Below, piece by piece: positions 29,663 through 54,206 of a stretch of 64,000 nt of DNA (position 1 is the stretch's first letter; the number at the start of each line of letters is the position of its first letter). Below the pieces are notes generated by a model. The model did no database searches. It was not told the DNA's origin and worked only from the letters and a program-made list of their open reading frames with translations. Position numbers and translations under genes: made by a program. Location of the stretch: positions 1,054,001 through 1,118,000 of the forward strand of contig NZ_CP011994.1 of the NCBI RefSeq assembly GCF_001632845.1. Direction: 5' to 3'. The DNA is from Ectothiorhodospira sp. BSL-9. GTDB taxonomy: Bacteria > Pseudomonadota > Gammaproteobacteria > Ectothiorhodospirales > Ectothiorhodospiraceae.

Positions 29663-29937
29663 CAGGGAGACCCTTTAATAATGATCTTTTTAAAGACTTA
29701 CTTTAGTAATGATAATTAGCAACCGGCATTGGCCTGGATAACGCTCGGGTTAACCATATTTTTCATGAACTTGCACGACCTCGGGACTGTGCGCAGCCGC
29801 TCGGATAAGCCACGCACAAACTGTTGAGGGAATGTGGATAACTCCGGAAGCCGGTTTTGTCCCGTGCTGCCCCACAGGTTATCAACAGTCCTGCCCACCG
29901 CCCACACCGGATCACCTGTCTCCAGCCCGGTTCCAGG
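29663..29937. other. dnaA-dnaN intergenic region, candidate part of oriC
   Basis: This 275-bp gap contains an AT-rich stretch (about 29675-29725) next to dnaN, a perfect DnaA box at 29833-29841 (minus strand) and a one-mismatch box TTATCAACA at 29879-29887. Several weaker GGATAA-type matches lie between them. An unwinding-prone element beside DnaA boxes next to dnaA is the standard layout of an origin. Which of the two dnaA-flanking gaps is the active origin cannot be decided from sequence alone. The region also carries the dnaN promoter. Confidence 0.6.
29833..29841 (-). promoter_or_regulatory. Perfect DnaA box in the dnaA-dnaN gap
   Basis: TGTGGATAA on the plus strand is the complement of the consensus TTATCCACA. 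Confidence 0.8.
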
Positions 29938-31356
29938 TCAGCTGGTCAGCGTTCTCAGCAGGTTGACGAAGTCCTCATTAATACGGGCATCTGATTCCCG
30001 CAGTTCCTGAACCTTTCGACAGGCATGCAGCACCGTGGTGTGGTCACGCCCCCCAAAGGCCTTGCCAATCTCTGGCAGGCTGTGATTGGTGAGTTCCTTG
30101 GAGAGCGCCATGGCCACCTGTCTGGGGCGGGTGATGGACCGGCTGCGCCGATTGGAATGCAGATCCGACACCCGGATCTTGAAGTATTCGGCCACCGTCT
30201 TCTGGATGTTGTCGATCGTGACCAGCTTGTCCTGCAGGGCGAGCAGGTCGTGGAGGGCCTCCTTGGCGAACTCCAGGGTGATGGCGCTGCCCGTGAAATG
30301 TGCATTGGCCAGCACCCGGCGCAACGCGCCTTCCAACTCACGGATGTTGGAGCGGATCCGTTTGGCCACGAAGAAGGCCACCTCACTGGGCAATTCCACC
30401 CCGGCCTCCTCGGCCTTGCGATTGAGGATGGCCACCCGGGTCTCCAGTTCCGCCGGTTCGATGGCCACGGTCAGACCCCAGCCGAAGCGGGACTTGAGGC
30501 GGTCCTCCAGACCATCCACTTCCTTGGGATACCGATCACAGGTCAGGATCACCTGTTGCTGGCTCTCCAGCAACGCATTGAAGGTGTGGAAGAACTCCTC
30601 CTGCGAGCGCTCCTTGCCCGCGAAGAACTGGATATCGTCGATCAGCAGGGCGTCCACCGAGCGGTAGTAGCGCTTGAACTCGTCAATGGAGTTGTGCTGC
30701 AGGGCCTTGATCATGTCGGCCACGAAACGCTCCGAGTGGAGATACACCACCTTGGCCCCGGGGCGATGGGCCAGAATGGCGTTACCGATGGCGTGCATCA
30801 GGTGGGTCTTGCCCAGACCTGTACTTCCATACAGGAATAACGGATTGTAGGCCATGCCCACATTGCCGGCCACCTGAAGGCTTGCCGCCCGGGCCAGCTG
30901 GTTGGACTTGCCTTCCACGAAATTATCGAAGGTGAAATTGGGGTTCAGGTTGTTGGTGAACTGAGGCGAACTGGCCGCTGGCTGTGGCGCCGCCTCCTGC
31001 TGCGGTTGCCGCATGGCTGTATTGCGGACCCCGCGCGGGCCATGGCCCTGACCGGCGCTACCAGGGGCGTTTGCGGTTCGGGCAGGGGCCTTGGCCGGAG
31101 CAGGGCGCTGGCTGCTGCCCACTTCCAGATGCACCCGCATCGACTGTTCACCGGAGGTGTCGTTCACCACCTGGTCGATGCGTTCGAAAAAGTGATCCTT
31201 CACCCAGTCCAGCACGAATCGATTGGGTGCGAGCAGGCGCAGGACTTCCGGCTCCTCCACCGCATGCAGAGGACGTATCCAGGTGTTGAGCTGTTGTTCG
31301 GAGAGTTCGCCCTCCAGGCGCGTGACGCATTGCTGCCAAAGGGAGCTGCCGACCAA
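29938..31356 (-). CDS. dnaA: Chromosomal replication initiator protein DnaA
   Basis: The 472-residue protein has an N-terminal domain I ([20 protein letters not shown]), a low-complexity Ala/Pro/Gln-rich domain II (about 75-145), an AAA+ domain III (Walker [16 protein letters not shown], Walker B LLIDDIQF) and the domain IV helix-turn-helix ([20 protein letters not shown] with the signature [13 protein letters not shown]). It binds DnaA boxes and opens oriC. Its own upstream region has a DnaA box over a promoter-like sequence, which suggests autoregulation. Confidence 0.98.
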
Positions 31357-31393
31357 GGGTAATTCTCCAGGGCTGGTGGTGGATAAACGCGCC

Positions 31394-31423
31394 AGTCTAC
31401 TCTGGGCGCGGAAGAGTTATCCA
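31394..31423 (-). promoter_or_regulatory. Candidate dnaA promoter overlapping a DnaA box
   Basis: On the minus strand TGGATA (31423-31418) and TAGACT (31399-31394) are 18 nt apart and resemble -35 and -10 elements. The -35 lies inside the DnaA box, so DnaA would repress its own gene. The -35 match is weak. Confidence 0.35.
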
Positions 31424-31425
31424 CA
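31417..31425 (+). promoter_or_regulatory. Perfect DnaA box upstream of dnaA
   Basis: TTATCCACA matches the consensus exactly, about 60 bp upstream of the dnaA start. Confidence 0.85.
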
Positions 31426-31465
31426 CCTTTTTCCACATCCTGATCACCCTTCATGGGCCACGACA

Positions 31466-38156: not shown

Positions 38157-38191
38157 CTATCCACAAAACCTGTGGATAACTATGTGGGTAA
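38157..38191. promoter_or_regulatory. Cluster of three DnaA-box matches
   Basis: CTATCCACA (38157-38165, one mismatch), TGTGGATAA (38171-38179, perfect, minus strand) and TGTGGGTAA (38183-38191, one mismatch) lie within 35 bp. Confidence 0.65.
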
Positions 38192-38241
38192 AATGTCGGG
38201 AACTCTCGCAATCGCCCGTGTGGCCGCCTCCCTTGGCCAGA

Positions 38242-38260
38242 TTGGTCAAAATTTGATCAA
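38242..38260. promoter_or_regulatory. Palindromic operator candidate 1 upstream of T6SS
   Basis: TTGGTCAAAATTTGATCAA is a 19-bp dyad with one mismatched pair. Its half-site resembles that of the second palindrome 54 bp downstream. Confidence 0.5.
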
Positions 38261-38313
38261 TTCCCATAAGTAACTGTTTTTCTGATTTTTTAATCAGTCC
38301 ATGGCCATCTGGT

Positions 38314-38330
38314 TTGTCAAGTCTTGACAA
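38314..38330. promoter_or_regulatory. Palindromic operator candidate 2 upstream of T6SS
   Basis: TTGTCAAGTCTTGACAA is a perfect 7-3-7 dyad. It contains TTGACA but no -10 is placed for it, which favours a regulator site over a core promoter. Confidence 0.5.
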
Positions 38331-38440
38331 GCGGATACGCTCAAGTGAAGCCCGAATTGCTAGTGCATACGCCTGGGGAAATCCCGAGCCTCACACCTGG
38401 GCTAATCGTCTCGACACCCTCTCAAGCCCCTGGCGAGGTG

Positions 38441-38475
38441 TTGACTTTCCTTGTGGCATATGGAGTAATTCTTGC
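38441..38475 (+). promoter_or_regulatory. Overlapping sigma-70 and sigma-54 promoter candidates for the T6SS operon
   Basis: TTGACT (38441-38446) and AGTAAT (38464-38469) with a 17-nt spacer fit sigma-70 (5/6 and 4/6). Independently, GG (38462-38463) and GC (38474-38475) are 10 nt apart with TTGC at the -12 position, as in sigma-54 promoters. The -24 element lacks the usual CAC. Only one is likely real. Confidence 0.4.
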
Positions 38476-38551: not shown

Positions 38552-39130
38552 ATGAACCAGCCCGTCAGGGGGTGCCAGGGCACCCAACCCCGTCAATACC
38601 CATCTGTGCCATCGTCCCGCCCACGCACCGGGCTCCACGGGAAGATGCCTGCCCGGCAAAGCGCCGCGCCCTCCCGCTATCGCCCACCCCTGTGGCCCTG
38701 GCTATGCCTGCTCATGCTGCTCAGCGGCTGCAGCAGTCCGCAATTACGGGTTGATCTGCACTCCACCGCCAATCTCAATCTCAGTGACGAAGGACAGCCC
38801 CTGCCTGTGGTGGTGCGGGTCTATCAGCTCAGCGACCTGAAGGCCTTCGAGGATGCCGATTTCCGGGACCTGTGGCTGCATGACCTGCAGACCCTGGGCA
38901 ACACCGCGCTCAGCCGCAAGGAGTTGATCCTGAACCCGGCCCAACAGGCAGATCTGCAATTGCAGCGTCACCCAAAGGCGGTTTACCTGGGGGCCGTAGC
39001 CATCTTCCGTGAACCCTCTGACCCCGCCTGGCGGGACGTCACCCCCTTGCCCAAGGGTTATGTCGGTAAACGCATGGACCAGCGTCTCACCGTCAGCTTG
39101 CGCGGCAACCAGCTGAACATTCAGGAATAA
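38552..39130 (+). CDS. tssJ: T6SS outer-membrane lipoprotein TssJ
   Basis: The 192-residue lipoprotein binds TssM in the trans-envelope complex. The lipobox LLSGC puts the lipidated cysteine at residue 60 from ATG 38552, or residue 29 from ATG 38645. A strong ribosome site (AAGGAG, 38539-38544, 7-nt spacing) supports 38552, whereas signal-peptide length favours 38645, which has only a weak site. The mature domain has the TssJ pattern (VVVRVYQLSDLKAFEDADF). It is first in the ten-gene plus-strand operon. Confidence 0.9.
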   Translation: MNQPVRGCQGTQPRQYPSVPSSRPRTGLHGKMPARQSAAPSRYRPPLWPWLCLLMLLSGCSSPQLRVDLHSTANLNLSDEGQPLPVVVRVYQLSDLKAFEDADFRDLWLHDLQTLGNTALSRKELILNPAQQADLQLQRHPKAVYLGAVAIFREPSDPAWRDVTPLPKGYVGKRMDQRLTVSLRGNQLNIQE

Positions 39131-39161
39131 TCCCCAATACCGACCAGGGAAGGGCAGGCAC

Positions 39162-40496
39162 ATGACAGCCATCCGCAAGGTGATCTGGAGCGAGGGCATT
39201 CTCCTCGGCCAGCAGCATTTTCAAGCCTGGGACCGTTACCACGAACAGGCATTGATCGAGCGGTTCCGCATCACTCACCCGCGCAGCTGGGGCCTGCATC
39301 GACTGCGTCTGGACCCGGACGCCCCCGCCATGGGCATCTGCCGCATCCTGGAGCTGGAGGCCATCCTTCCGGATGGGCGCCTGGTCACGGTAGACCCTTT
39401 CGATGATGTCCCTCTGGCCTGTGAACTCCCCGATGCCGCACGCGAGCCGGTCGTCGTTTATCTCCTGCTGACCCGCGAGCGCCAGGCCCTGGGGATGACC
39501 GGATATGAAGCCGCCGGCCATCGCCGCGGTGCCTGGCAGGTGGACTATGTGGAACTGGCCGATGAGCACGACACCCAGCGTCGGCAGGAAGTGGCCCTGG
39601 GCCGACTGAACCTGATCCTGGGCACCGAGACACCTGCGGATCCCGACCTGATACGCCTTCCTGTCACCCGGCTCACCCCACGCATGGGCGGTGGATTTCA
39701 GATCGACGACGACTTTGTTCCCCCCCTGCTCAGCCTTGAGGCATCACCCGCCCTGCAGCGTTTCACCGGGCAGCTGGCAGAGCGGATTCGACTCCATTCC
39801 CGTGAACTGGCCAGGGAATGCAAAGTGTGCAAGCCCTCCGACCGTCACCTCATCCATGCCCTGAATGCCCGTCTGCAGCGCTTATTGATCCGTCTGGAAC
39901 ACCTGCGGGCCATGGAATCGAGCCATCCCGAAGGGCTTCACCTGGCGCTGGCGGAGGCCTGCGCGGAAATCCAGTCCCTGGTGCCGCAGGATGACGAAGA
40001 TTGGGCCCTGCCCCTCTATCGACATGGGGATCCAGCCCCGGGCTTACGGACACTTCAGGCACACTTTGGGGCGTTGCTGGATCGCTTTCGTGCCTTGCAC
40101 ACGCGCCCTCCCGTCCTGCAGCAGCTTGCCGATGGTCGATTCCAGGCGCGGGATCTGACGCGCAGTCTTTCCTCGTCGCAACTCTTGTACATCACTGCCA
40201 GGACCGAAAGGGAGGATACGGACTGGATCAGGGATTTCCCCCGTCAGGCCAAGGTGGCCAGCGCGGATCAACTGGATCTGCTGATCCGCACGGCCCTGCC
40301 GGGCGTATCCCTTTGTCATCTACCGCGTCCCCCAGCGGATCTGCCCGTGCCCAGGGGGCGGGAGTGTTTTCGACTGGAACCGCAGGGAGAGTCCTGGCAA
40401 GCGTTGCTGGAGAGCGACAGCCTGGGCATCTTCCTGCCCGCAGGCCTGCGGCATCTGCAACTGGACCTCATGGTGGGGGAGCGGGAGGCTCCATGA
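39162..40496 (+). CDS. tssK: T6SS baseplate protein TssK
   Basis: This 444-residue protein forms trimers that link the baseplate wedges (TssF/TssG) to the membrane complex. It begins MTAIRKVIWSEGILLGQQHF, the conserved TssK N-terminus, and ends with the receptor-binding domain. Its stop overlaps the tssL start (ATGA). Confidence 0.94.
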   Translation: MTAIRKVIWSEGILLGQQHFQAWDRYHEQALIERFRITHPRSWGLHRLRLDPDAPAMGICRILELEAILPDGRLVTVDPFDDVPLACELPDAAREPVVVYLLLTRERQALGMTGYEAAGHRRGAWQVDYVELADEHDTQRRQEVALGRLNLILGTETPADPDLIRLPVTRLTPRMGGGFQIDDDFVPPLLSLEASPALQRFTGQLAERIRLHSRELARECKVCKPSDRHLIHALNARLQRLLIRLEHLRAMESSHPEGLHLALAEACAEIQSLVPQDDEDWALPLYRHGDPAPGLRTLQAHFGALLDRFRALHTRPPVLQQLADGRFQARDLTRSLSSSQLLYITARTEREDTDWIRDFPRQAKVASADQLDLLIRTALPGVSLCHLPRPPADLPVPRGRECFRLEPQGESWQALLESDSLGIFLPAGLRHLQLDLMVGEREAP

Positions 40497-41188
40497 AGAA
40501 CCCCTATCTTCACTGCGCCGGTCCGCTACTGGTCACCCTCGCGGCCCTGAACGAGCCCGACCAGAACCGGTCTGATGCCTCCACGTGGCGCCAAAGGGTC
40601 CTGGAGGATATGGAGCAATTCAGCCGGCGGGCCCAGGCGAGAGGCCTTCCGGGGCCGGGCGTGCAGGATGCCCGCTATGCCCTGACCGTGCTGGTGGATG
40701 AACGCGCCATGGCGCTCACCGATGCCCTGGCCCAGTCCTGGGCCGAAGAACCCCTGCAGGTGACCCTGTTCGGCGAGTATCGCGGTGGTGAGGCATTTTT
40801 CGAGCGTCTGGCCGAGCTACGCCAGCACCCCCGCGACCATGCGGACCTGCTGGAGTTGTATCTGTGCTGTCTGCATCTTGGGCTGGAGGGGGTCTATCGT
40901 CTTCGCGGACCGGAGAGGCTGGAGTCCCTGAAGAGTGATCTGCGCGAACAGGTGCGACAACTGCAGGAATCGGACGGTGACTCAACCACTGCCACATCCC
41001 TGGCTGGCAAGAATACCCGGCACCAGCCACGACCTGTGCCTCTTTCCATCCGTGGTATCAGCCTCACCCTGCTGGGCCTTATCCCGGTACTCGTGTTCTT
41101 CCAGGGCTGGCAATTGCACACCCTGGACCGGGACCTGAGCATCACGCTGGACAGCCATGCTGAAGCCATCTCACGGGTGCTGCCATGA
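40493..41188 (+). CDS. tssL: T6SS inner-membrane protein TssL (DotU family)
   Basis: The 231-residue protein has a cytoplasmic helical DotU domain and a single C-terminal membrane helix (about 187-207). No OmpA-like peptidoglycan-binding extension is present. The motif YALTVLVDERAMALTDALAQ near residue 61 is typical. It works with TssM and TssJ and overlaps both neighbours by 4 nt. Confidence 0.92.
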   Translation: MKNPYLHCAGPLLVTLAALNEPDQNRSDASTWRQRVLEDMEQFSRRAQARGLPGPGVQDARYALTVLVDERAMALTDALAQSWAEEPLQVTLFGEYRGGEAFFERLAELRQHPRDHADLLELYLCCLHLGLEGVYRLRGPERLESLKSDLREQVRQLQESDGDSTTATSLAGKNTRHQPRPVPLSIRGISLTLLGLIPVLVFFQGWQLHTLDRDLSITLDSHAEAISRVLP

Positions 41189-44100
41189 CCCACCTTTTTG
41201 CGCGCCTTCGAAGCCCCCTCATGCGCCTGGCCGGGCCGGCGGCAGGGCTGGTGGTGGCCCTTGGGCTGGTGGTCCTGTTCTGGTCGGACATTCGAGCGGG
41301 TCTGGACCGGGTGCCCCTCTGGCTGCCATGGGCGGTCCTGCTCATCCTGTGCGTCGGTTTGCTGGTGTGGTGGCGTACCCGCATCCACCGTGACCGCACG
41401 CCCATCAGCGATACCCCAAACGGTTCCCGGGATGCCGTGGATGAAGAATGCCGGGATCTGGATGAGGCGTTCAAGGCCATCCATAAGGATCTGGAAGCCA
41501 CCTCGCCAACCCGAATCGGCCTTCGCCGCCGACACGCCGCAGCCCCCTGGTATCTGCTCATGGGGCCGAGCAACAGCGGCAAGACCTACCTCTCGAATAA
41601 CATCGCCCAGGTGGCCGGTCACGACTCACAGGAGACGACTGCCCACACAGCGATCGACGTCCGACTCCTGAAAGGCGCCGTGTGGGTGGAGCTTCGGGGA
41701 ACACTCATGGAGCAAGCGGATCGTCAGGACCTGTGGCGACATCTGCTGGATCGTTTGCGACAGCACCGATCCCGCCAGCCCCTCAAGGGCCTGATCATGA
41801 CCCTGAACCTGCCAGCGCTGCTGGAGATGGAACCGCCACAGCGGGATGCACGGGTGGGCATGTTGCGACGCCACCTCCAGGAACTCTGTGAAACCCTGGG
41901 TCAGCTCCCGCCGATGCATCTGGTGCTCACCCACATGGATCAGATACCGGGGTTCACCTGGCTGGCGCCGATCCTGGCGGACGAAGACTCCGGGACCTGG
42001 GGTTTTGCGCTGGATCCTCAACGGGACACCCTGCCACAGCTGGATGAGGCCTTGGCCAGTCTTCTGGAGGAACTGGACCACAAGCGACTCAGGGCACTGG
42101 ACCTTGGCCGCGATCCGGCCAGGGGGGCTGAGATCATCGCCTTTCCCCATCGCATGGAGCGGGCCGCCGGATGTCTGCGGGATGTACTCACACGCTTGTG
42201 CCGCCCCGAACCCGGGCGCGAGATCCCACCCATGGTTGGGGTGTACCTGACCGGCACCACGGGGGCCGAAAATCCGACAGTCGAGGATATGGCGGACCTG
42301 ACCCTGGAGCACATCCAGGGTGACCCCGCAACGGCCCAACCGACCCAACGCCAGGCGTTTCGCACCAGGGCGCTGCAAGGGACCCTGCTCATCCTCACGG
42401 CGGCCTTGCTGATATCGTCCTTGACCCTGATGTATCCCGCCAAGCGCACCCAGGCGGACCTGATGCACACCGGTGTGAGCCTGCTGCAGGACCTGTCCGA
42501 CAACCTCCAGGACCGGGAACCTGAGATCCTTGCCAGCCTGGCGGCCATCCATGCCCATGGCCAGCGACTGGAATCGCCCCATGGGCATGCGCCGTTGCCT
42601 CTGCATCCTCTTCCCTGGTGGCCTCGAAACCAGGCAGTGGCCCTGGATGACAGCCTGGCCCAGGTGATGAACGCGATGATCCTGCCTGATGTCCTCAACG
42701 CGCTGGAGGCGCGTATCCGGGAGCGCGCCCACCAATGGGCATCCCTGGACCCGACGCAGCGGGAACTTGAACGCCCCGTCCACTATGAGGATCTGAGGCT
42801 TTATCTGATGATCCATTGGCCCGACCACCGGGACGAGCACATCCTCCTGGAGGGACTGAACACGCTGACCCGGTCCAACCTGACCTCCCATGGCCCGGTC
42901 CATCAACCGGATGCCCCCACCCTGGGCGCACTCTGGCGGCGCTGGTTCGCCCATGGCCTGACACCCGACTCCCCCATGCAATCCGGGCTGGTAGCCAAGG
43001 TGCGCGGCCAACTTCAGACAGAGGCCTCACCCCAGGCCGCCTATGCACGGCTGCAGTCCCGGGCGGCACGGGAAATGGGCCACGTGGCGCTTGAGGAGAT
43101 ACTGGGGCGCGATGGGGCACGACTGATCCGTGCGGAGCACGCCCTGCCGCAGCTCTACACTGCCAGGGCCTGGCAGCAATTCACGCTTCCCACCATTGAT
43201 GAGCTGGTGGCGCAGGCCCTGCAGGGGGATTGGGTCACCCAGGAGGACACCGACACCCACGCGCGACAACCCATGGACCCGGAGCAGGTGGAGGCCCTGA
43301 CCCATGACCTGCGCCAACGCTATCTGGATGACTACCAGAAGGCCTGGGGTGACTTCCTGTCTGGTCTGAGCGTGATGCCCTTTCGTGATCTGTCCGCCGC
43401 CGCCGATGGCCTGGGGCGGCTCAGTGCCGAAACAGGCCCGCTGACACGCCTGGCCACCTGGACCCATGACAACCTCAATCTGCATGAATCACCCGGGCAT
43501 CTTCACGAGGCCCTGGGGGCATTATCCAGAGGAGTTGACACGTCCAGCTTCCAGCATCCCATTCTGGCAGGAGGGCAGGACAACCCGGGGCCACTGCTGG
43601 CGTTGTTATCTCCGGAAGAGGACACCCTGGTGAGCACCGCCCTCAGCGACCACCTGGAGACCCTGCGGGCCATTGCTTCACATCTGGAATCCCTGATGGC
43701 CAGTGCCGATCCGGGCCGAGAGGCCCGGGTAGCCGCCGCCGGGCTCCTGCAGGGGCAGGGTGGTCACACCCCACTGCAGGCGGCCTGGATGTCCACGTCC
43801 TCATTATTGGCCGATCTCCCGGCCGCCGAACGCCCGATGCTCGAGCCCTTGCTGCGATCCGCGGTGCGCGAGCCCTGGCGAACCCTGGTGAACACAGCGG
43901 TCGGGGATCTGGAACGCCAGTGGCAGGTACAGGTCATGGGCCCATGGCGGGACGGTCTGGCGGGCCGTTTCCCCTTCGATCCCCAGGGGCGGGATGCGGC
44001 CCTGGTGGACGTGGTGGATTTCTTTCACCCCGAGCAGGGCCTGCTCTGGGGTTTTGTTCATGAACAGTTGAGCCCCTTCCTGCAGGACACCCGGGGCGCG

Positions 44101-44643
44101 TGGCGACCCCGGACCTGGATCGGCGTGGGACCCACGTTTTCGCGGGGCTTCGTCCGGAACATGGCGCAGGCCGACGAGATCACCCGCAGCCTGTTTGCCC
44201 ACGGTCAGGGAACAGCCCAATTGAGCTTCCACCTCTATCCCATGCCCAGCCCCGGTCTGAGCGAGGTGGTCTTCGAGAGCAATGGTCAGGTCTACCGTTA
44301 CCGCAACGAGCCCCAGGAATGGCGGCGCTTCGCGTGGCCCGGGGATGCCGGCACCCCCGGTGCCCGCGTGCGCGCCGTGGATCATCATGGCCTCGCCACT
44401 GGCGAATACCGCGAGGAGGGCATCTGGGGTCTGTTCCGTTTGCTGCACGAGGCCCATGTGGAGGCCGATGACGGGGAGGGTCATGTTTACACCACGCGCT
44501 GGCAACTGCCCCATCAAGGCCAGGGTGACCCACCGGAGATCCGTTTCCGGATTCGCCCTGATCGGCAGCAGAACTTCCTGCGCCAGCAACTCTTCACCGG
44601 CTTTGAGCTGACCCGCTCGCCCTTCCTTGGGAGTCGTGGATGA
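41185..44643 (+). CDS. tssM: T6SS membrane complex protein TssM (IcmF family)
   Basis: The 1152-residue protein has membrane helices at about residues 15-33, 46-62 and 395-415. A cytoplasmic NTPase-like domain lies between helices 2 and 3 with an intact Walker A, GPSNSGKT (127-134), and the rest is a large periplasmic region. It forms the core channel with TssL and TssJ. It overlaps tssL and tssA by 4 nt each. Confidence 0.94.
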   Translation: MTHLFARLRSPLMRLAGPAAGLVVALGLVVLFWSDIRAGLDRVPLWLPWAVLLILCVGLLVWWRTRIHRDRTPISDTPNGSRDAVDEECRDLDEAFKAIHKDLEATSPTRIGLRRRHAAAPWYLLMGPSNSGKTYLSNNIAQVAGHDSQETTAHTAIDVRLLKGAVWVELRGTLMEQADRQDLWRHLLDRLRQHRSRQPLKGLIMTLNLPALLEMEPPQRDARVGMLRRHLQELCETLGQLPPMHLVLTHMDQIPGFTWLAPILADEDSGTWGFALDPQRDTLPQLDEALASLLEELDHKRLRALDLGRDPARGAEIIAFPHRMERAAGCLRDVLTRLCRPEPGREIPPMVGVYLTGTTGAENPTVEDMADLTLEHIQGDPATAQPTQRQAFRTRALQGTLLILTAALLISSLTLMYPAKRTQADLMHTGVSLLQDLSDNLQDREPEILASLAAIHAHGQRLESPHGHAPLPLHPLPWWPRNQAVALDDSLAQVMNAMILPDVLNALEARIRERAHQWASLDPTQRELERPVHYEDLRLYLMIHWPDHRDEHILLEGLNTLTRSNLTSHGPVHQPDAPTLGALWRRWFAHGLTPDSPMQSGLVAKVRGQLQTEASPQAAYARLQSRAAREMGHVALEEILGRDGARLIRAEHALPQLYTARAWQQFTLPTIDELVAQALQGDWVTQEDTDTHARQPMDPEQVEALTHDLRQRYLDDYQKAWGDFLSGLSVMPFRDLSAAADGLGRLSAETGPLTRLATWTHDNLNLHESPGHLHEALGALSRGVDTSSFQHPILAGGQDNPGPLLALLSPEEDTLVSTALSDHLETLRAIASHLESLMASADPGREARVAAAGLLQGQGGHTPLQAAWMSTSSLLADLPAAERPMLEPLLRSAVREPWRTLVNTAVGDLERQWQVQVMGPWRDGLAGRFPFDPQGRDAALVDVVDFFHPEQGLLWGFVHEQLSPFLQDTRGAWRPRTWIGVGPTFSRGFVRNMAQADEITRSLFAHGQGTAQLSFHLYPMPSPGLSEVVFESNGQVYRYRNEPQEWRRFAWPGDAGTPGARVRAVDHHGLATGEYREEGIWGLFRLLHEAHVEADDGEGHVYTTRWQLPHQGQGDPPEIRFRIRPDRQQNFLRQQLFTGFELTRSPFLGSRG

Positions 44644-46283
44644 ACGCACCATCTACCAGACCATCGGCAGCGATGGATGACCCCGCATCCCTGATCCCGC
44701 TGGCAACCGCGCCACTGCCCGAGGGGTCGGGCGTTGAGGATCCTCGCCATCATCCCACCCTGCTGGCCATCAAACAGGCCATGGGGCGCCTTCAGGGGAC
44801 GGATTTTGACCAGGTCATCCAGGATGCCAGCGGTTTCCTGGCCACCCAGGCCAAGGATCTGCGGGTGGCGGGGTTTCTGTGGCTGGCGCTGGTCACCCGT
44901 GATCAGATCGATGGACTCATCACCGGCACGGCATTGTTGCGACAGTTGCTGGAATACCAGGATGCCCCCATCCACCCCGGCAAGCCTGCCCAGCGACGCG
45001 CTGCCCTGGACTGGCTCAACAGCGAACGGGCAAGGCTCCTGTTGAATCGCCTGGATGCCGCCCCGGAACCGGAGGCGCTGGAGCTTATCCAGGGTGACCT
45101 TGAGCACATCGAGACATGCCTGGCCCAGGGGCCCTGGGATGATCCGGAAGCGCCCCCACGCTGGCATGTGCTGCGTCAATGGCTTCAGGCCCGCCGAAAG
45201 GACACGGTGACAGGCCAAGGCGCAACCAGCGACGCATCCGTTGCGCCGCAGGAGTTGGGCCAGAAACCTCAGCCCGGGCCATCACCACCCGCCATCGCAG
45301 CACCGGATGCTGCGGCTCCAAGTCACTCAGGGCATCCAGGTCCTGCGGGGATGGTGGATACCGCCACGGAGACCTTGCTGTCCACCGCCCGCGACCTGCA
45401 CGACGCCCTGCACAGGCAAGGCCGCCCCATCGAGGCCCTGGCCTTCGCCCGTGCGGCCCGTTGGGCGCCCCTGACCCTGCCACCCCACAACCAGGGCATC
45501 ACCCGCATCCCGCCACCCCGCCCGGCGGGCTGGGCCTGCCTGGATGACGCTCAGGCCCGTGGCGACTGGGCGGGCGTGCTCACAAGCGGTGGCGCCCTGT
45601 TCTTCGAACCGGGTTTCCACCTGGCCCTGGATCTGCAGCAGCGTCTGGCCATCGCTGCCGAACATCACCACGCCCATGATCTGGCCCTGGATATTCAATC
45701 CCAGGTCCGTGCCCTGATCCAGCGACTGCCCGGGCTGGAAACCCTGTGCTTCGAGGATGGCCGACCCTTTGCCGATACCACCACCCTCGCATGGCTGCGG
45801 GACGGCCCTGCCACGGAATCCCGCCAGGCCCTCTTGCCGACCAGCCCATTCCCGTTGGCCGATCAGGACGCCTCGGCACCGCATCCCGACACCCTCAAGG
45901 ACCTGTCCCTGACCGATGCCTGGCAGGCCCTGGCGCACTGGCCCATGACCACCGAACGACAGCGCCTGATGGCGATGATCGCCCGGGCTGATCTTTGTCT
46001 TCGGGCCCGGCGACCGGATGTGGCGCTCCCGGTCCTGAAGGCCGCCCGGGCTCAACTGGAGGCGGTCAGGATCGTGGACTGGGACCCGGCCATGGGCAGG
46101 ACCCTGCTCACCCGTCTGCACCAGGTGGCGGTCACGCTGGATGCCCGGGGGCGGTCCCAGAAGGCGTTGATACAGGAATGTGAACAGGAACTGGCGCGCC
46201 TGGACCCCCAGGCCGCCATGGATGTCTTCCCCCTGCCCGAGGAGCGGTCGCGGACCGCGCCGGGCCTCCATGACAAACCATAG
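44640..46283 (+). CDS. tssA: T6SS cap/assembly protein TssA
   Basis: The 547-residue protein has an N-terminal ImpA_N domain (about 30-150: HPTLLAIKQAMGRLQGTDFD, and EYQDAPIHPGKPAQRRAALD) and a longer C-terminal VasJ-like helical part. TssA primes baseplate and sheath assembly. The middle (about 185-235) is a Pro/Ala/Gln-rich linker. Its position between tssM and tssB fits the role. Confidence 0.85.
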   Translation: MNAPSTRPSAAMDDPASLIPLATAPLPEGSGVEDPRHHPTLLAIKQAMGRLQGTDFDQVIQDASGFLATQAKDLRVAGFLWLALVTRDQIDGLITGTALLRQLLEYQDAPIHPGKPAQRRAALDWLNSERARLLLNRLDAAPEPEALELIQGDLEHIETCLAQGPWDDPEAPPRWHVLRQWLQARRKDTVTGQGATSDASVAPQELGQKPQPGPSPPAIAAPDAAAPSHSGHPGPAGMVDTATETLLSTARDLHDALHRQGRPIEALAFARAARWAPLTLPPHNQGITRIPPPRPAGWACLDDAQARGDWAGVLTSGGALFFEPGFHLALDLQQRLAIAAEHHHAHDLALDIQSQVRALIQRLPGLETLCFEDGRPFADTTTLAWLRDGPATESRQALLPTSPFPLADQDASAPHPDTLKDLSLTDAWQALAHWPMTTERQRLMAMIARADLCLRARRPDVALPVLKAARAQLEAVRIVDWDPAMGRTLLTRLHQVAVTLDARGRSQKALIQECEQELARLDPQAAMDVFPLPEERSRTAPGLHDKP

Positions 46284-46306
46284 CCACAAGGATGAGGACG
46301 CTTGCC

Positions 46307-46831
46307 ATGACCCGCAGCTTTCAGAATGAAGTGCCCCGTGCACGTGTGAACATCGCCCTGGAGGTCAACCAGGGTGGCGCCCGCCGGAAGGTGGATCTGC
46401 CCTTCAAGATGCTGGTGATGGGTGATTTCAGCCACGGGCGTGCCCAGGGCCGCGTGGCGGAGCGTCCGCGCATGGGCGTTCACAGCGGCAATCTGCAGGC
46501 GGTGCTCAAGGACATGGCCCCGTCACTGCGCTTGACCGTGCCGGACAGGATTTCATCGCAAAATCAGGAGATCCCGGTGGATCTCACCTTCGAGCACATG
46601 AAGGATTTTTCCCCCGAGGCGGTGGCCGCCCGGGTGCCCTCGCTGGCCCGGCTGATGGCCATGCGCAATCTGCTCAAGGAGCTCAAATCCAGCCTGCTGG
46701 ACAACACCGCCTTGCGCCGGGAACTGGACCGGATCGTGCGGGACGACGAAGAACTCAAGGCCCTGCAGGGTCAGCTCAAGCGCCTGCTACCCCCGGCCGA
46801 GGCTTCATCACAAGACACCGCCAACCACTGA
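46307..46831 (+). CDS. tssB: T6SS contractile sheath small subunit TssB
   Basis: This 174-residue protein (VipA-like) assembles with TssC into the contractile sheath. It has the conserved RARVNIALEV and the sheath segment KVDLPFKMLVMGDFS. ATG 46307 is chosen because GAGGA precedes it by 8 nt; an in-frame ATG at 46292 lacks room for a ribosome site. Confidence 0.95.
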   Translation: MTRSFQNEVPRARVNIALEVNQGGARRKVDLPFKMLVMGDFSHGRAQGRVAERPRMGVHSGNLQAVLKDMAPSLRLTVPDRISSQNQEIPVDLTFEHMKDFSPEAVAARVPSLARLMAMRNLLKELKSSLLDNTALRRELDRIVRDDEELKALQGQLKRLLPPAEASSQDTANH

Positions 46832-46885
46832 TCAGCCCATCAAGCTCGTAAACCCATCATCCGGGAAGACTGCAAGGAGAAGCAG

Positions 46886-48403
46886 ATGACCGCCACACAG
46901 ACCGTGGACACCCCAAGTCAGGTCGCACCCTACGCCCGCCTGTGCAACCTGGCCGCCGTCACCCCCCTGGAACAGGGACTGGATCTGGATCGTTTCAGCG
47001 ATGCAGGGGAACTGGCCCAGGCTCCCCAGGGGGATCGCCTCACCGCCGCCCTGGGGGTGCTGCTGGACTTTCTGGAACCCCCTGCCACGGGCGAGAGCGC
47101 GGCGCGCATCGACAAGACCCTGGTGGATGATTTCATTGCCCGCATTGATGGTCTGATCGGCGAACAACTGGACGAAATCCTGCACCATCCAGAGTTTCAG
47201 CGGCTGGAAGCCGCCTGGCGCAGCCTGCAGTTTCTCACCGAACGGGCCGATCCCCGCGCCCATGTGAAGCTGGAACTGCTGGATGTGAGCAAGGCCGACC
47301 TTCAGGAGGATTTCGAGGATGCTGCCGACACCACCCAGAGCGGGCTGTACCGTCAGATCTATGTGCAGGAATATGACACCCCCGGCGGCGAGCCGGTCAG
47401 TGCGCTGATCTCTGACTACTGTTTCGATAATACCGCCCAGGACATCAGCCTGCTGGGGGAGATTGCCCGGGTGAGTGCCGCCTGCCACTGCCCCTTCATC
47501 GGTTCGGTGGGGCCCCGATTCTTCGGCAAGCACAAGACCAGCGAACTGACCCGCATCCAGGACCTGGGGGCCCATATGGACCAGGCCGCCTTCATCCGCT
47601 GGAATGCCTTCCGCGACAGTGAGGACGCCCGTTACGTGGGCCTGACCCTGCCCCGGTTCCTGCTGCGCCTGCCCTACGGCCAGGATCACCCGGTGCGCAG
47701 CTTCTGCTACCAGGAGAACACCCTGGGACCGGAACCGGACAAGTACCTCTGGGGCAATGCGGCCTTCGCCTTTGCCGCCAACATGGCGGAGAGCTTCCGG
47801 GATCATGGCTGGGCAGTGAACATCCGCGGCCCTGAATCCGGCGGCAAGGTGCCCGGGCTGCCGCTGCACCAGTACGACCTGGGCCAGGGCCTGCAGACCC
47901 GCATGCCCACGGAGTTTCTCATCTCCGAGACCCGGGAGCTGGAGTACGCCCGCATGGGGTTCATCCCCCTGAGTTACTACAAGAACCGGGATTTCGCCTG
48001 TTTCTTCTCGGCCAACTCCACTCAGCGGCCCGGTGAATATCCGTCACCGGAGGCCACCGCCAACAGCCTGGTGAACGCCCGTCTGCCCTATGTGATGCTG
48101 GTGTCCCGCATCGCCCATTACCTGAAGATCCTGCAGCGGGAGAACATCGGCGCCAGCAAGTCCCGGCAGGTGCTGGAGGATGAACTCAATCAGTGGTTGC
48201 AGACCCTGGTCACCCGCATGAAGGACCCGGACCCGGCCCTGGTGGCCAGTCATCCGCTACGGGACGGGCGAGTCAGCGTGGAGGAGATTCCCGAGAATCC
48301 GGGGCTGTATGCCGTGAATCTGTTCGTGATGCCCCATTTCCAGATCGAGGGGGTGGATGTGCGGCTGTCCCTGGTGGCGCAGATGCCCAAGGACGCCGGG
48401 TAA
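46886..48403 (+). CDS. tssC: T6SS contractile sheath large subunit TssC
   Basis: This 505-residue protein (VipB-like) forms the outer sheath with TssB. It has the conserved HPEFQRLEAAWRSLQFLTER and the C-terminal EIPENPGLYAVNLFVMPHFQ motif. The ribosome site AAGGAG precedes ATG 46886. In characterised systems a ClpV ATPase recycles the contracted sheath, but no clpV gene is present in this locus. Confidence 0.96.
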   Translation: MTATQTVDTPSQVAPYARLCNLAAVTPLEQGLDLDRFSDAGELAQAPQGDRLTAALGVLLDFLEPPATGESAARIDKTLVDDFIARIDGLIGEQLDEILHHPEFQRLEAAWRSLQFLTERADPRAHVKLELLDVSKADLQEDFEDAADTTQSGLYRQIYVQEYDTPGGEPVSALISDYCFDNTAQDISLLGEIARVSAACHCPFIGSVGPRFFGKHKTSELTRIQDLGAHMDQAAFIRWNAFRDSEDARYVGLTLPRFLLRLPYGQDHPVRSFCYQENTLGPEPDKYLWGNAAFAFAANMAESFRDHGWAVNIRGPESGGKVPGLPLHQYDLGQGLQTRMPTEFLISETRELEYARMGFIPLSYYKNRDFACFFSANSTQRPGEYPSPEATANSLVNARLPYVMLVSRIAHYLKILQRENIGASKSRQVLEDELNQWLQTLVTRMKDPDPALVASHPLRDGRVSVEEIPENPGLYAVNLFVMPHFQIEGVDVRLSLVAQMPKDAG

Positions 48404-48484
48404 GTCATACACGCCCCGAACCCCGCCCCGGTGAAGGGGCAAGCCCTTGAAGTCCCCAACCATCCATTGCAAGGAGAGCATGAC

Positions 48485-48970
48485 ATGGCCGTACCCGCCT
48501 ACCTGAGCATCCGTGACGATCAGGGCGCCCCCGTGGAGGGGCCCGTGCAGATCACTGGCCGTCGCAATTCGGTGGAGGTGCTGCAACTGGATCACCAGAT
48601 CCGCATCCCCACGGATTCGGACACCGGCAGCCTGACCGGCACCCGCAAGCACGAACCCCTGCGTTTCGTGAAGACCTTCGACAAGGTCTCCCCCTATCTC
48701 TACAAGGCCTGCAGCAATGGCCAGACCCTCTCGGAGGTGGTGATCAGCTGGTTCCGCATCGATGACAGCGGCAGCGAACGGGAATACTTCCGCCATCGCC
48801 TGGAGGACGTGAAGGTCACCTCAGTGAAACCCACGATGCACAACGTCAAGGATCTGGACAAGGAGCGCTATCCCCACCTGGAGGAGGTCTCCCTGCGCTA
48901 CGGTCGCATCACCTGGACCTATGTGGACGGCAACATCGAATTCCAGGATTCCTGGGTCGAGGGCCGTTAG
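48485..48970 (+). CDS. hcp: T6SS inner tube protein Hcp (TssD)
   Basis: The 161-residue protein makes hexameric rings that form the expelled tube. The frame opens at 48431, but MAVPAYLSIRDDQGAPVEGP at 48485 matches the family start and has AAGGAG at 48471-48476. No C-terminal effector extension is present. Confidence 0.95.
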   Translation: MAVPAYLSIRDDQGAPVEGPVQITGRRNSVEVLQLDHQIRIPTDSDTGSLTGTRKHEPLRFVKTFDKVSPYLYKACSNGQTLSEVVISWFRIDDSGSEREYFRHRLEDVKVTSVKPTMHNVKDLDKERYPHLEEVSLRYGRITWTYVDGNIEFQDSWVEGR

Positions 48971-49050
48971 GAAACAGGCGCTCCAGAGCCCCTCTTCCGC
49001 AATGGAAGAGGGGTGGCGGTGCCACCGGTTCATCAAGGAAGAGAGACCCC

Positions 49051-50838
49051 ATGGACATCCTTCAATACCTTCACACACCGGATGAGTTCACCCATGTCCG
49101 GGACGAGGCATGCTTGCGCGAACGCATGCACCTGGATCGCGCTGCCCGGGAGTTCGCGGAAGATTTTCCGGAGCCGGCCCGGCGCCTGGGCCTGGACACA
49201 CCCGAAAACCCGGGCCCGGGGATGGACACCCTCCTGCAGGGCGTTGCCCGTATTCACGCCGATATCAGCCGGCGTCTGGATGATGACCTCCCGGAGATCT
49301 CCGGGGCACTGCTGGAACAACTGTGGCCCGGCGCCATGAGTGCCTATCCCGCCTGCACGATCCTCGCCTTTCAGCCTCGATTGCGAGGCGGCATGACACA
49401 GACAGTGCCGGCCGGAGCAGTGGTGGAAAGTGACCCTGTAGGCCATGAGTCCACCCGTTGCCGCTTTCGCACCGTCACCGAATTGACCCTCCACCCGCTG
49501 GAACTGATGAGCATCGAAACAGCGGATACGCCCGACGGCACGCGGGTATCGCTAGGCCTTGAAGTTCACGACCCCCGTGGTGCCGCCACAGTGCTGCCTG
49601 GGTACCTGGATCTGTATGCCGCCGATCCGCGTGGCGGCGCCGAACTGGTCCATGCCCTGCGTCACCACACCCGGGCCCTCAGCCTGTGGGTGGAAGGGCA
49701 GGGGGAGCGCCCCCTGGGGGTCTCCCGGGTTGTCGACGCTGCCCCCCGACCCTGGCAGGACCCCATGACGCCATGGGTGGACGCCTCCCACGCCGGGCTT
49801 CACCTGCTGCAGGACTACCTGCATTTTCCCGAGGCCTTCCGCTTCGTCCGGTTGCACACAGGAAGCCGGGAACGTCTCCCCCGAGGCATCGAAAAATTCA
49901 TCCTGCACCTGCAGCTGGATGTGCATCTGCCCACCTCCATGCCTGTGACCACCCAGAGCCTGCGGCTGCACTGCATCCCGGCCATCAACCTGTTTGAACA
50001 CAGCGCCGAGCCCATCGTCAGGGAACCGGGTCGTTGCCGTTACCCGGTGTTACCCGATGCCCGGGCGCGGCGATCCATCCATACCCATCGTGTGGAGAAG
50101 ATCATGGGCATCGATGGCACCAACGCCCAGCGCCGGGTTTACCGCCCGGCCCTGGCCCATGGCATGGACGATGGCCAACCCCTCTACCAGGCCCTGCCAC
50201 GGCCCGGCCCCCATGGCAGCTGGCAGACCTGGCTGGAGCTGGATCCGGCCCAGGCGCCACTGCGGGAAACCCTGTCATGCCGCTTGTTGGCCCATAACGG
50301 GGATCTGCCGCACCGTCACCTGAGCCCCGGCACGACAGTTCATGGGGTGAAGAACATCCCGGATACCCTGAAAGTGACTCACCTCATCCGCCCGACGCCG
50401 CACTATCCGCCGTCGGATCGGGCGCGATGGCGATGGGATCTGGTATCCCTGGTCTGTCTGCGTCAGCAGGGATTGATGTCCACCTCGGCACTGCGGCAGG
50501 TGATGCAGTTACTGGATCGCAGTGGCAGCGCGTCGCAACGGCGCCGGCTTGAAGGTCTGGGGCAACTCACCGTCACCCCCTGCAACCGCATGGAACGCGG
50601 GGCCGTGCTCCATGGCCTGGAGGCACACCTGCAGGTGGATGAGGATCATTTTGCCGGCGAGGCGGATCGGGTGCTGTTCACCGCGGTGCTGGAACGCTTC
50701 CTGAATCATTACGCACAACTCAACAGCTTTGTCCGGCTGTCTCTGGAACACCGCCCGGATTCAGGCTCGATTCCAGTGGGCTCTCCATCATCCCACCGCG
50801 TTCCCGGTGCCATGGCAGCCAGGGGGGATCTTTCATGA
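49051..50838 (+). CDS. tssF: T6SS baseplate protein TssF
   Basis: The 595-residue protein has an N-terminal FAEDFPEPARRLGLD and DDLPEISGALLEQLWPGA. The C-terminal segment (FTAVLERFLNHYAQLNSFVR) is shared with the VasA/ImpG family. TssF is present in two copies per baseplate wedge. It follows hcp by 80 nt, where a tssE gene would often sit but does not fit. Its stop overlaps the start of the tssG-vgrG gene. Confidence 0.92.
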   Translation: MDILQYLHTPDEFTHVRDEACLRERMHLDRAAREFAEDFPEPARRLGLDTPENPGPGMDTLLQGVARIHADISRRLDDDLPEISGALLEQLWPGAMSAYPACTILAFQPRLRGGMTQTVPAGAVVESDPVGHESTRCRFRTVTELTLHPLELMSIETADTPDGTRVSLGLEVHDPRGAATVLPGYLDLYAADPRGGAELVHALRHHTRALSLWVEGQGERPLGVSRVVDAAPRPWQDPMTPWVDASHAGLHLLQDYLHFPEAFRFVRLHTGSRERLPRGIEKFILHLQLDVHLPTSMPVTTQSLRLHCIPAINLFEHSAEPIVREPGRCRYPVLPDARARRSIHTHRVEKIMGIDGTNAQRRVYRPALAHGMDDGQPLYQALPRPGPHGSWQTWLELDPAQAPLRETLSCRLLAHNGDLPHRHLSPGTTVHGVKNIPDTLKVTHLIRPTPHYPPSDRARWRWDLVSLVCLRQQGLMSTSALRQVMQLLDRSGSASQRRRLEGLGQLTVTPCNRMERGAVLHGLEAHLQVDEDHFAGEADRVLFTAVLERFLNHYAQLNSFVRLSLEHRPDSGSIPVGSPSSHRVPGAMAARGDLS

Positions 50839-53800
50839 GCCCCGTACGACGGTCTGCAGGTGCCACTACCCAACAGGTGCGCACGTGCCTCCGACAGGGT
50901 GGCCTGCTGGAACGGATGCGTGTTCATCTGCATCGGGAAGAACCCGTGATGGTCTCGCCGGATCCTGGGTTGTCCTTTCCCTCGTCGCCAGTGAAGACCG
51001 TCCCGAACAGCAGGGGCCGGATCAACCTGTGCGCACCCACTCCAGGCCTGTATGGCGTGGAAGGCCACCTGCCCGCCGCCTGGCGCGAGGCAGCCCAGGG
51101 GGATAGCCAGGAGGCCCGGGCCCTGAGGGGGTTTCTGGATATTCCCGGCCGTCGGCAGGCCCACCTGAACTACCGGGTGTGGCAACGCTCACGCCCGACC
51201 CTGATCGATGGGCAGGGGAGTCATCCCCTGCAAGCCTGTCTGGCAGCCCTGGGAGGCCAGGGTTTTCAGGACAGGGCAGGCATCGACCCACTCATGGGAG
51301 GGATCACCGCCCAGCCCAGTGCCGATGCCCTGGCGGCCCGGATCAGCCGGTGGCTCGGACAGCGGTACCCCGATATTCACCACCCTGTGCGCATCGCACA
51401 GTTCCAGCCCCATTGGGTCAGCCTTTTTCCCACCACCGGCCTGGGCAGGTCGCCGGGCAACCGCCTGGGCATGGACACCCATCTGGGCGAGCGGGTGCCG
51501 GACCGCAGTGGTCCCATCCATATCGTCATCGGCCCGCTGTCCATCGATCAGGTCCGTGCCCTGTCGCCCGGCCAGCACGTGGGCCAGGCCCTGGCGGCCC
51601 ACATCCGCAGAGGTCTGGGCCGCCATCATGATTTTGTGCTGAGCCTGGAACACGTGCCCCGGCGATTACCCCAGCTGGGGTGCCAGGGACCGGTGCTGGG
51701 CATGGATATCCTGCCCACACAAGGGGATCTGCCTTACCCATCTCGCGCAGCTGGCCGGATAGCGCCTTCACAACCCCAGCCCATGAAATCCATGCCCATG
51801 ACCCCCATGACCCCCATGACACAGCGGCCTCGTCTTCAGCTTGACCTGCAATGCCAGGGAGGCGAACGCCTCACGGTGCTGGACTTCAGCAGCCAGGATC
51901 TTGCCCTGTCACGCTCCTACCGCCTGGATGTCCGCTGCCACAGCCACTCCCCTTTGGTGGCCAGCGAAGTCCTGGGGCAGGCCGCCTGTCTGCGCCTTGA
52001 CCGGGGGAGCGCCGCACCCTGCATCCATGGCCTGGTCACGGCGCTGGATCAGTCCCCTGGAGCAGCAGGCAAGGGGGTGATCCAGCACATCTGCCTGGAA
52101 TCCCCCCTGGCGCCCCTGGCCCGGACCCGCCAGAACCGCGTCTTCCCTGGCATGGGGGTACGGGCGGTGGTGGAGGAAGTCCTGCAGGGCCACGGCTGGA
52201 CACCGGCCCAATGGCGCATGGCCTGTCGGGACGATGACCCGGTGGAGGACCTGATCGTTCAGGTGGAGGAGGACGACCTGGCCTTCATCACCCGCCTGAT
52301 GGCCTTTCACGGGTTGTTCTATCGCTTTGAGCAATCCAGGCAGGGGGTGACCCTGGTCATTCACGACGATGCCTGTGACCTGCCTGAGGCGCCCGTGAGG
52401 CGATTGCCGTTTCATGCCCACAGTGGACAGCATGCCCCCGCGGACATCATCTACCGGCTGGCGGCCCGGGCCCGGTTGATGCCCGGGGCGGTGCAACTCA
52501 GAGACCATTTCCCGGACCATCCCCAGGTCGCGCTCCATGCCCGGCAGGAGTGCAAACAGCTCTCGGGGGGCTTGGAGGATCACTGGGGGGCGGGTTTTGC
52601 CACTCCGGGCCAGGGCGAGCATCTGGCCCGGGTGCGGGCCGAGTCCCTGGATACCCAAAGCCTCAGCTTCTCGGCCTGGACGGGGCATCGGGCCCTGACG
52701 CCGGGGCAGCGGATCACCCTCACCGGTCATCCGCATGCCGATTTCAATAAGACCTATACCATCACGGCCCTGCAACTTCGCGGGGAGCAGGCCTCCAGCC
52801 TGCCCGATGGCATGCCCACCACAGGCCCGGCCTTCAGCACACGGCTTGAACTCATCCCCTCCACTCAATCCTATCGCCCGCCGCTGACACCTCACCGCAG
52901 CAGCGCCCGTTTCGTTGCCCGCATCGACGGGCCCGAGGGTGAGCCCATCCATCTGGATGCCCATGGACGTTACCGGATCCGGTTTGATTTCGACTCCCGC
53001 GAGCATCCGCCCGGCCAGGCCAGCCATCCCGTACGAATGCTCACACCCTATGCCGGCGACGACTTCGGCTTCCACTTCCCGCTGCATGCGGGCACGGAGG
53101 TGCTGGTGGCCTTCGAGAACAACGATCCGCACCGCCCCATCATCCTGGGCGCCCTGCCCAATGCCGACCATCCCAGCCCCGTCACAGCACACAACCGCCA
53201 CCAGAACCTGTTGCGAACCCACGGCGGAAACGAACTGCTCATGAATGATCAGCCTCACGGCCCCGGTATAAGGCTCAGTACCCGGGACCATGGGTTACGT
53301 GTGCTCATGGATGCCACGCCGGAGGATCCTCATCTGGCCCTGCATGCGGATGATGGTCGCATGCTCTGGCAGGCGGGGCAGTCTTTGTCCCTTCAGACGG
53401 GCGGGGATCAGATTGTGGAGGTCGGCGGGGATCAGCGGGTCAACGTGCAGGGGGCCTCATCCCTGGAGACTCGCGAGGGTTCCTTGCAGCTGATCTCGGG
53501 GGAGGATCTGAGGGTTCAGGCAGGGGGGGATCTGCATCTTGAGGCAGGACAAGGGGATCTGGAGCAGCGCAGCCAGGGATCCATGAATCTGAGGGCGGGA
53601 CGTGGCATGCGCCTGGAGGTTCGCCAGGGGGATCTGGAATGCCATGTGGCGAACGGTCGACTGGGGATGTCGGCGGGCGGGAGGATCACCCTGCAGAGTC
53701 AGTCAGGGGAGATCCATATCGGTCACGCCCATGCCGGTATTCGTCTGACTCCCCGGGGCGAGCTGGTCATCCAGGGGCGGGAGGTCCGTATTGAAGCCGA

Positions 53801-53846
53801 AACCATCAGGGTGCAGGGGGACGGGATCGTCCACAACGGAGGCTGA
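50835..53846 (+). CDS. tssG-tssI: TssG-VgrG (TssG-TssI) fusion: baseplate protein joined in frame to the spike protein
   Basis: A single open frame of 1003 codons. Residues 1-300 are TssG: the ALRGFLDI and LNYRVWQRSRP segments, GNRLGMDTHLGERVPD, and GPLSIDQVRALSPG match the VasB/ImpH family. Residues 301-330 are a Pro/Met-rich linker with five in-frame ATGs (MKSMPMTPMTPMTQ, from 51783). Residues 331-1003 are a full VgrG: N-terminal gp27-like domain, OB fold (HLDAHGRYRIRFDFDS and HAGTEVLVAFENNDPHRPII), and a C-terminal needle with repeated Gly-Asp/Val turns. No effector extension is seen. Start ATG 50835 overlaps tssF. An internal start at 51783 could yield VgrG separately, but no ribosome site precedes it. 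A TAG (51760-51762) and a TGA overlapping ATG 51783 lie in one other frame, so a one-base error could mimic a fusion. Confidence 0.88.
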   Translation: MSPVRRSAGATTQQVRTCLRQGGLLERMRVHLHREEPVMVSPDPGLSFPSSPVKTVPNSRGRINLCAPTPGLYGVEGHLPAAWREAAQGDSQEARALRGFLDIPGRRQAHLNYRVWQRSRPTLIDGQGSHPLQACLAALGGQGFQDRAGIDPLMGGITAQPSADALAARISRWLGQRYPDIHHPVRIAQFQPHWVSLFPTTGLGRSPGNRLGMDTHLGERVPDRSGPIHIVIGPLSIDQVRALSPGQHVGQALAAHIRRGLGRHHDFVLSLEHVPRRLPQLGCQGPVLGMDILPTQGDLPYPSRAAGRIAPSQPQPMKSMPMTPMTPMTQRPRLQLDLQCQGGERLTVLDFSSQDLALSRSYRLDVRCHSHSPLVASEVLGQAACLRLDRGSAAPCIHGLVTALDQSPGAAGKGVIQHICLESPLAPLARTRQNRVFPGMGVRAVVEEVLQGHGWTPAQWRMACRDDDPVEDLIVQVEEDDLAFITRLMAFHGLFYRFEQSRQGVTLVIHDDACDLPEAPVRRLPFHAHSGQHAPADIIYRLAARARLMPGAVQLRDHFPDHPQVALHARQECKQLSGGLEDHWGAGFATPGQGEHLARVRAESLDTQSLSFSAWTGHRALTPGQRITLTGHPHADFNKTYTITALQLRGEQASSLPDGMPTTGPAFSTRLELIPSTQSYRPPLTPHRSSARFVARIDGPEGEPIHLDAHGRYRIRFDFDSREHPPGQASHPVRMLTPYAGDDFGFHFPLHAGTEVLVAFENNDPHRPIILGALPNADHPSPVTAHNRHQNLLRTHGGNELLMNDQPHGPGIRLSTRDHGLRVLMDATPEDPHLALHADDGRMLWQAGQSLSLQTGGDQIVEVGGDQRVNVQGASSLETREGSLQLISGEDLRVQAGGDLHLEAGQGDLEQRSQGSMNLRAGRGMRLEVRQGDLECHVANGRLGMSAGGRITLQSQSGEIHIGHAHAGIRLTPRGELVIQGREVRIEAETIRVQGDGIVHNGG

Positions 53847-54206
53847 GACGATGGATTTTTTTGTGGCGCCCTTTATTACAGGTTTTTTAATGAACTACCA
53901 ATAATAATAATAAGGGGGCTGGTCAAAGCGGGAAAACTCTTTGAAAAACGTTATGAATCATTATTTTGGATCAATTGGAACCTGTGCAGTACCGTTGGGG
54001 CAATTCAAGGATAGGGTGTGTGTGAAATGTGGATAACTTGACGACCCTGATCTATCCACCGTGAGTTCATGCTTTATCCACAGGTCTGTCCCCAGTCATC
54101 CGGGCAGAGGGAGGGTGTACGAGTGGCGGTTTTCGTCTACCCTCGTGGAGTGAGTTCACCAAGGCGTTCACAACGCCTTCCCCATACCCCTAAGGAGTCA
54201 GGACAC
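53847..54206. other. AT-rich intergenic region between T6SS and phasin genes
   Basis: These 360 bp hold no credible gene. They contain T-runs (53855-53890), an AAT trinucleotide repeat (about 53900-53912), and a DnaA-box cluster (54028-54082). AAGGAG lies just before the phasin start. No convincing terminator for the T6SS operon is visible apart from the T-runs. Confidence 0.6.
54028..54082. promoter_or_regulatory. DnaA-box cluster upstream of the phasin gene
   Basis: There are perfect boxes TGTGGATAA at 54028-54036 (minus) and TTATCCACA at 54074-54082 (plus). Between them lies a degenerate CTATCCACC (54052-54060). The two perfect boxes face each other across 37 bp. Confidence 0.6.

Follow-up and report, generated by a model that had tools for sequence, protein, structure and literature searches.

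Does the small cluster of DnaA boxes between hrpB and the T6SS gene tssJ of Ectothiorhodospira sp. BSL-9 merely belong to the replication-origin region around it, or does it serve a function of its own? The window, meaning the whole stretch of 64,000 nucleotides that was analysed, is the replication-origin region: dnaA (29938-31356, minus strand) is flanked on one side by dnaN, recF and gyrB and on the other by rnpA, yidC, mnmE and hrpB, and the cumulative GC-skew minimum of the window lies near 53-54 kb. In sampled stretches the GC skew is mostly negative to the left of this point and mostly positive to the right of it until about 2.6-2.9 Mb. The perfect DnaA box TTATCCACA occurs five times in the window, at 29833, 31417, 38171, 54028 (minus strand) and 54074 (plus strand). 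All five are intergenic, as the original prediction had it; the one at 54074 falls inside only a mechanical ORF extension, in which the phasin match begins at residue 89 and the better start codon is at 54208. The number of perfect boxes expected by chance, put at about 0.5 in that prediction, is lower, about 0.15 from base composition, and TTWTNCACA was observed seven times in the window, where shuffles averaged 1.02. The whole genome has 14 perfect boxes, including these five, and a reversed-pattern control gave 4. Because the window holds dnaA-dnaN-recF-gyrB and the skew switch, the boxes at 29833, 31417, 54028 and 54074 are assigned to the dnaA/origin region, where such boxes are expected, and the cluster at 38157-38191 therefore needs its own explanation.

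The cluster begins 14 bp after the stop codon of hrpB, with tssJ about 390 bp further downstream, and consists of one perfect and two one-mismatch boxes whose positions and strands agree with those first claimed:

38157-38165, plus strand: DnaA box I, CTATCCACA, one mismatch (7/8 of TTWTNCACA), inverted relative to boxes II and III
38171-38179, minus strand: DnaA box II, TTATCCACA, perfect, 5 bp from box I
38183-38191, minus strand: DnaA box III, TTACCCACA, one mismatch (7/8), 3 bp from box II

The core thus reads box I (inverted), 5 bp, box II, 3 bp, box III. Boxes I and II stand head to head with box III beside box II at fixed spacing, which is the arrangement that marks a DARS core, and by this architecture the cluster is probably the core of a DARS-type, DnaA-reactivating element. 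The dnaA-flanking and oriC boxes (29833, 31378-31437 and 54028-54082) are also near-consensus, intergenic and in the same window, but lack the 5/3 three-box module. An Rfam scan of the window found no RNA family.

The module is repeated elsewhere in the genome. A search of the 3.55-Mb genome with ATCCACANAANCTGTGGATAANNNTGTGG, allowing up to 3 mismatches, found seven copies (506555 minus, 653105 minus, 1092159 plus, which is the 38157 site, 2497625 plus, 2555309 minus, 2712645 plus and 3178799 plus) and none with the reversed control. The clusters are not confined to the origin region, a point on which the original prediction had asked for a check, since the seven modules are spread round the chromosome, and the genes adjoining them are unrelated to one another. 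With at most one mismatch the module is present in 47 of 58 relatives (control matches, 0), and its copy number differs between species. When both gaps were left free (0-12 and 0-9 bases), it was found in 99 of 185 genomes of the class, with the 5/3 spacing in all but two distinct sites among the matches listed. At the level of the phylum, some families outside the class have the module too, with a few other spacings, and most other families are without it. Matches in a scan of named genomes came from Pseudomonas, Acinetobacter, relatives of the Xanthomonadales, Ectothiorhodospiraceae, many betaproteobacteria and a Zetaproteobacterium; single matches in Planktophila and Clostridia MAGs may be contamination. 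Two relatives each carry three module copies 2-8 kb apart (locus L079 in G008 and locus L081 in G001).

Beyond the core, further elements were found at fixed distances, counted from offset 0, the T of TCCACA at window position 38160:

38192-38210 (+32 to +50): conserved segment beside the core, 94% identical to the relative G009
38244-38258 (+84; class-wide +83): Fis-consensus palindrome GGTCAAAATTTGATC, 13/13 match
38267-38279, minus strand (+107; +115 to +120 in most relatives): weak IHF-like match AAACAGTTACTTA, 7/9
38314-38330: palindrome TTGTCAAG-T-CTTGACAA, in the genus of the form TGTCAAG-W-CTTGACA
38362-38370, minus strand (+202): degenerate fourth DnaA box GTATGCACT, 6/8, where many relatives have a perfect box

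The best Fis-consensus match stands at +83 or +84 in 55 of 72 sites of the genus and family, and the 13/13 score of the window copy was reached by no shuffle. In 21 of 32 class-level sites the best Fis match falls between +82 and +84 (binomial p about 1e-28); IHF matches recur there between +116 and +119, and a fourth DnaA box between +198 and +203. Sites of one genus are not independent, and for that reason weight is carried by a repeat test on 110 sites from named genomes, picked by the core alone: a 6/6 Fis match at +82 to +84 was found in 42 of them (0.28 expected), an IHF match of at least 8/9 at +115 to +120 in 61 (0.6 expected), and a perfect fourth DnaA box at +197 to +205 in 42 (0.14 expected). 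The pair TTGGTCA/TTGATCA had been considered as a direct repeat or unwinding element; this was dropped, the fixed offset and the G..C palindrome indicating a Fis-type site. The TGTCAAG-W-CTTGACA palindrome lies at +152 to +156 in 13 module copies of the genus, between unrelated genes. Whereas Fis and IHF matches are both strong at fixed offsets in relatives, the window copy combines its full Fis match with a weak IHF match and a degraded fourth box, and it may therefore be less active than the other copies.

What is known of DnaA reactivation comes from work on two E. coli sites, DARS1 and DARS2. The head-to-head boxes I and II together with box III are characteristic of DARS and essential for ADP release, and a review notes similar sequences in many proteobacteria (PMC4245941, PMC8682772, PMC10380432). 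DARS2 needs Fis and IHF as well (PMC4245941). In DARS1 (bioD-uvrB, 17.5 min), which reads TTATCCACT-ATTCC-TGTGGATAA-CCA-TGTGTATTA, the order, orientation and 5/3 spacing of the boxes are identical to those of the window core, and the flank from +30 to +130 is in register with the class matrix. It differs in being a single copy, in its weaker boxes I and III, in having no good Fis match at +83 and in an IHF match of only 7/9, at +118; we know of no need for Fis or IHF at DARS1. DARS2 (ygdT-mutH interval, 64 min) likewise has a three-box core of the same geometry, with weaker boxes, no good Fis match at +83 and the extra boxes IV-VI. A weight matrix was built only from 117 sites of other named genomes, with the genome under study left out. 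It gave the window site at 38157 a score of 77.3, the next best in the 64 kb being -1.0, and scored E. coli DARS1 at 50.9, the DARS2 interval at 25.8 and 17.4 (two places, either of which may be the published core), datA at -1.1 and oriC at -10.7. This separation of DARS from datA and oriC is the most discriminating result and, with the DARS1 three-box geometry, gives good support to the DARS-like function that was among those first proposed for the cluster. Homologues of Hda and Fis are also encoded in the genome. Hda, which in E. coli produces ADP-DnaA (RIDA), was found above cut-off at 252.6 bits, and a Fis homologue with 51% identity over residues 25-97 (E 1.9e-20).

By analogy with the E. 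coli sites, ADP-DnaA would bind boxes I and II head to head, and box III would steady the complex. The facing AAA+ domains would then let go of ADP, and the apo-DnaA would leave and reload with ATP, so that the level of ATP-DnaA would rise before the following initiation. Bending of the DNA and tuning of the complex would fall to Fis at +84 and, in most relatives, also to IHF near +117 and a fourth DnaA box near +200. From the sequence of the 38157 site we predict that proteins bind it, that ADP is released there and that the timing of initiation is affected.

Several other functions can be imagined for a group of DnaA boxes at this place. The boxes might only bind and store DnaA, the fixed layout merely lifting their affinity. 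They are near-consensus and close to the origin, and in E. coli DnaA boxes are reported to accumulate near oriC and DARS sites to titrate DnaA (PMC12371093), so that titration, as envisaged in the original prediction, is likely as a side effect. As the sole role it is unlikely, in that storage needs neither the strict 5/3 geometry, nor the inverted box I, nor Fis and IHF sites at fixed distance, yet all of these are kept across the class. An activity of the opposite sign is that of E. coli datA (downstream of glyVXY, 94.6 min), likewise a non-coding cluster of DnaA boxes which acts with IHF on the nucleotide state of DnaA, but by stimulating ATP hydrolysis. Intergenic boxes near the origin, and the IHF sites in the modules of most relatives, would suit a site of this kind; datA itself does not match the module by its matrix score, however, the head-to-head pair is, by published description, a hallmark of DARS, and in place of the one strong IHF site that accompanies the box arrangement of datA the window copy has a weak one (7/9), all of which makes a datA-like function highly improbable. 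It is still harder to credit that the cluster, which adjoins dnaA and is followed by AT-rich DNA, is a secondary replication origin or the remnant of an origin split by insertion of the T6SS. An origin would be marked by a box array at the skew switch, and the switch is near 53-54 kb rather than 38 kb; six more module copies lie elsewhere and E. coli oriC scores negatively. The split origin was dropped outright, as six unrelated loci carry the module and relatives that have hrpB without the T6SS there have no module there.

The number of copies, seven here and varying between species, and the further palindrome that some genus copies share at +152 to +156 might also suggest a mobile repeat of the MITE or REP kind, scattered through the genome and carrying DnaA boxes only by chance. 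The copies, however, agree in the positions of their binding sites and not in continuous sequence, and conservation in place is seen both from relative to relative and across the class, so that there is only a slight chance of this being the explanation. The position of the window copy raises yet another option, also part of the original prediction, namely a DnaA-controlled promoter element that couples transcription of the T6SS, from tssJ onward, to DnaA and replication. The module lies between hrpB and tssJ in G007 and G009 as well as here, and a module beside hrpB occurs in these three T6SS-bearing genus members and only in them; in the less close members G002, G003 and G005, hrpB is present with neither T6SS nor module beside it. 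Its presence thus does track the T6SS-bearing subclade, but the other six copies adjoin unrelated genes, and the likely promoter of tssJ (TTGACT-N17-AGTAAT at 38441-38469, which three species conserve though a promoter scan did not call it) is about 250 bp downstream of the core, whereas in DnaA-regulated promoters the boxes overlap or adjoin the promoter. Control of the T6SS is accordingly very improbable, and the link between module and T6SS is positional.

How, then, might this probable DARS-type element have come to lie here? Conservation of the cluster in relatives without this T6SS had been proposed as a check: the copy beside hrpB is absent in G002, G003 and G005, and the module is found in 99 of 185 genomes of the class. 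Since the hrpB-side module tracks the T6SS, the window copy seems to have been added in this subclade only, together with the T6SS or after it. The copy upstream of rimO, common to several genera of the family, is the older one. Compared with G009, the window copy is 86% identical in the core, 94% in the 18 bp next to it and 86% in the Fis segment. These parts stand out from the intergenic DNA around them; identity in the remaining segments between +50 and +200 is 38-63%.

The distance of the window copy is about 7 kb to dnaA and about 16 kb to the putative origin. With the origin set at the skew switch (about 1.108 Mb), the modules are found at about 16, 455, 601 and 1479 kb on the left arm and at about 1390, 1447 and 1605 kb on the right arm. 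Replication would double the near-origin copy, and with it the local dose of DARS, almost immediately after initiation. More broadly, and tentatively, since we would give this wider scheme somewhat less than even chances, DARS could be an ancient element of the proteobacteria, about 210 bp long and built on one fixed plan (core, Fis at +83, IHF at +117, fourth box at +200), of which E. coli DARS1 and DARS2 would be reduced or rearranged derivatives; in this genus it would have been amplified to up to seven copies, including one beside the origin, which would provide a dosage-based ATP-DnaA clock. If true, this would allow a test of how the copy number and position of DARS set the timing of initiation, and would provide a simple search model for wide annotation of DARS. 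The literature examined contained no description of a class-wide plan with Fis, IHF and fourth box at fixed places, nor of a seven-copy genome, and prior art outside E. coli may be wider.

Some features of the surrounding region deserve mention in their own right. The stretch 53847-54100, which directly follows the T6SS operon at a distance of about 22 kb from dnaA, is AT-rich, with TAATAATAATAA repeats, two perfect DnaA boxes (54028 minus, 54074 plus) and the GC-skew switch; it is conserved in G007 (91%) and G009 (77%) only, and is the probable replication origin. The neighbourhood of mnmE and mnmG, common elsewhere, is broken up in this genome, mnmG (G000:C1:1225383-1227230) being about 135 kb away from mnmE and dnaA. 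In the scanned T6SS ORFs at 38552-53846 (tssJ, K, L, M, A, B, C, hcp, F and G-vgrG) neither tssE nor tssH/clpV was found, and both may be located elsewhere. The last of these ORFs (50835-53846) encodes 1003 amino acids in one frame, with TssG at residues 32-291 and VgrG-type domains at 357-996, an apparent TssG-VgrG fusion.
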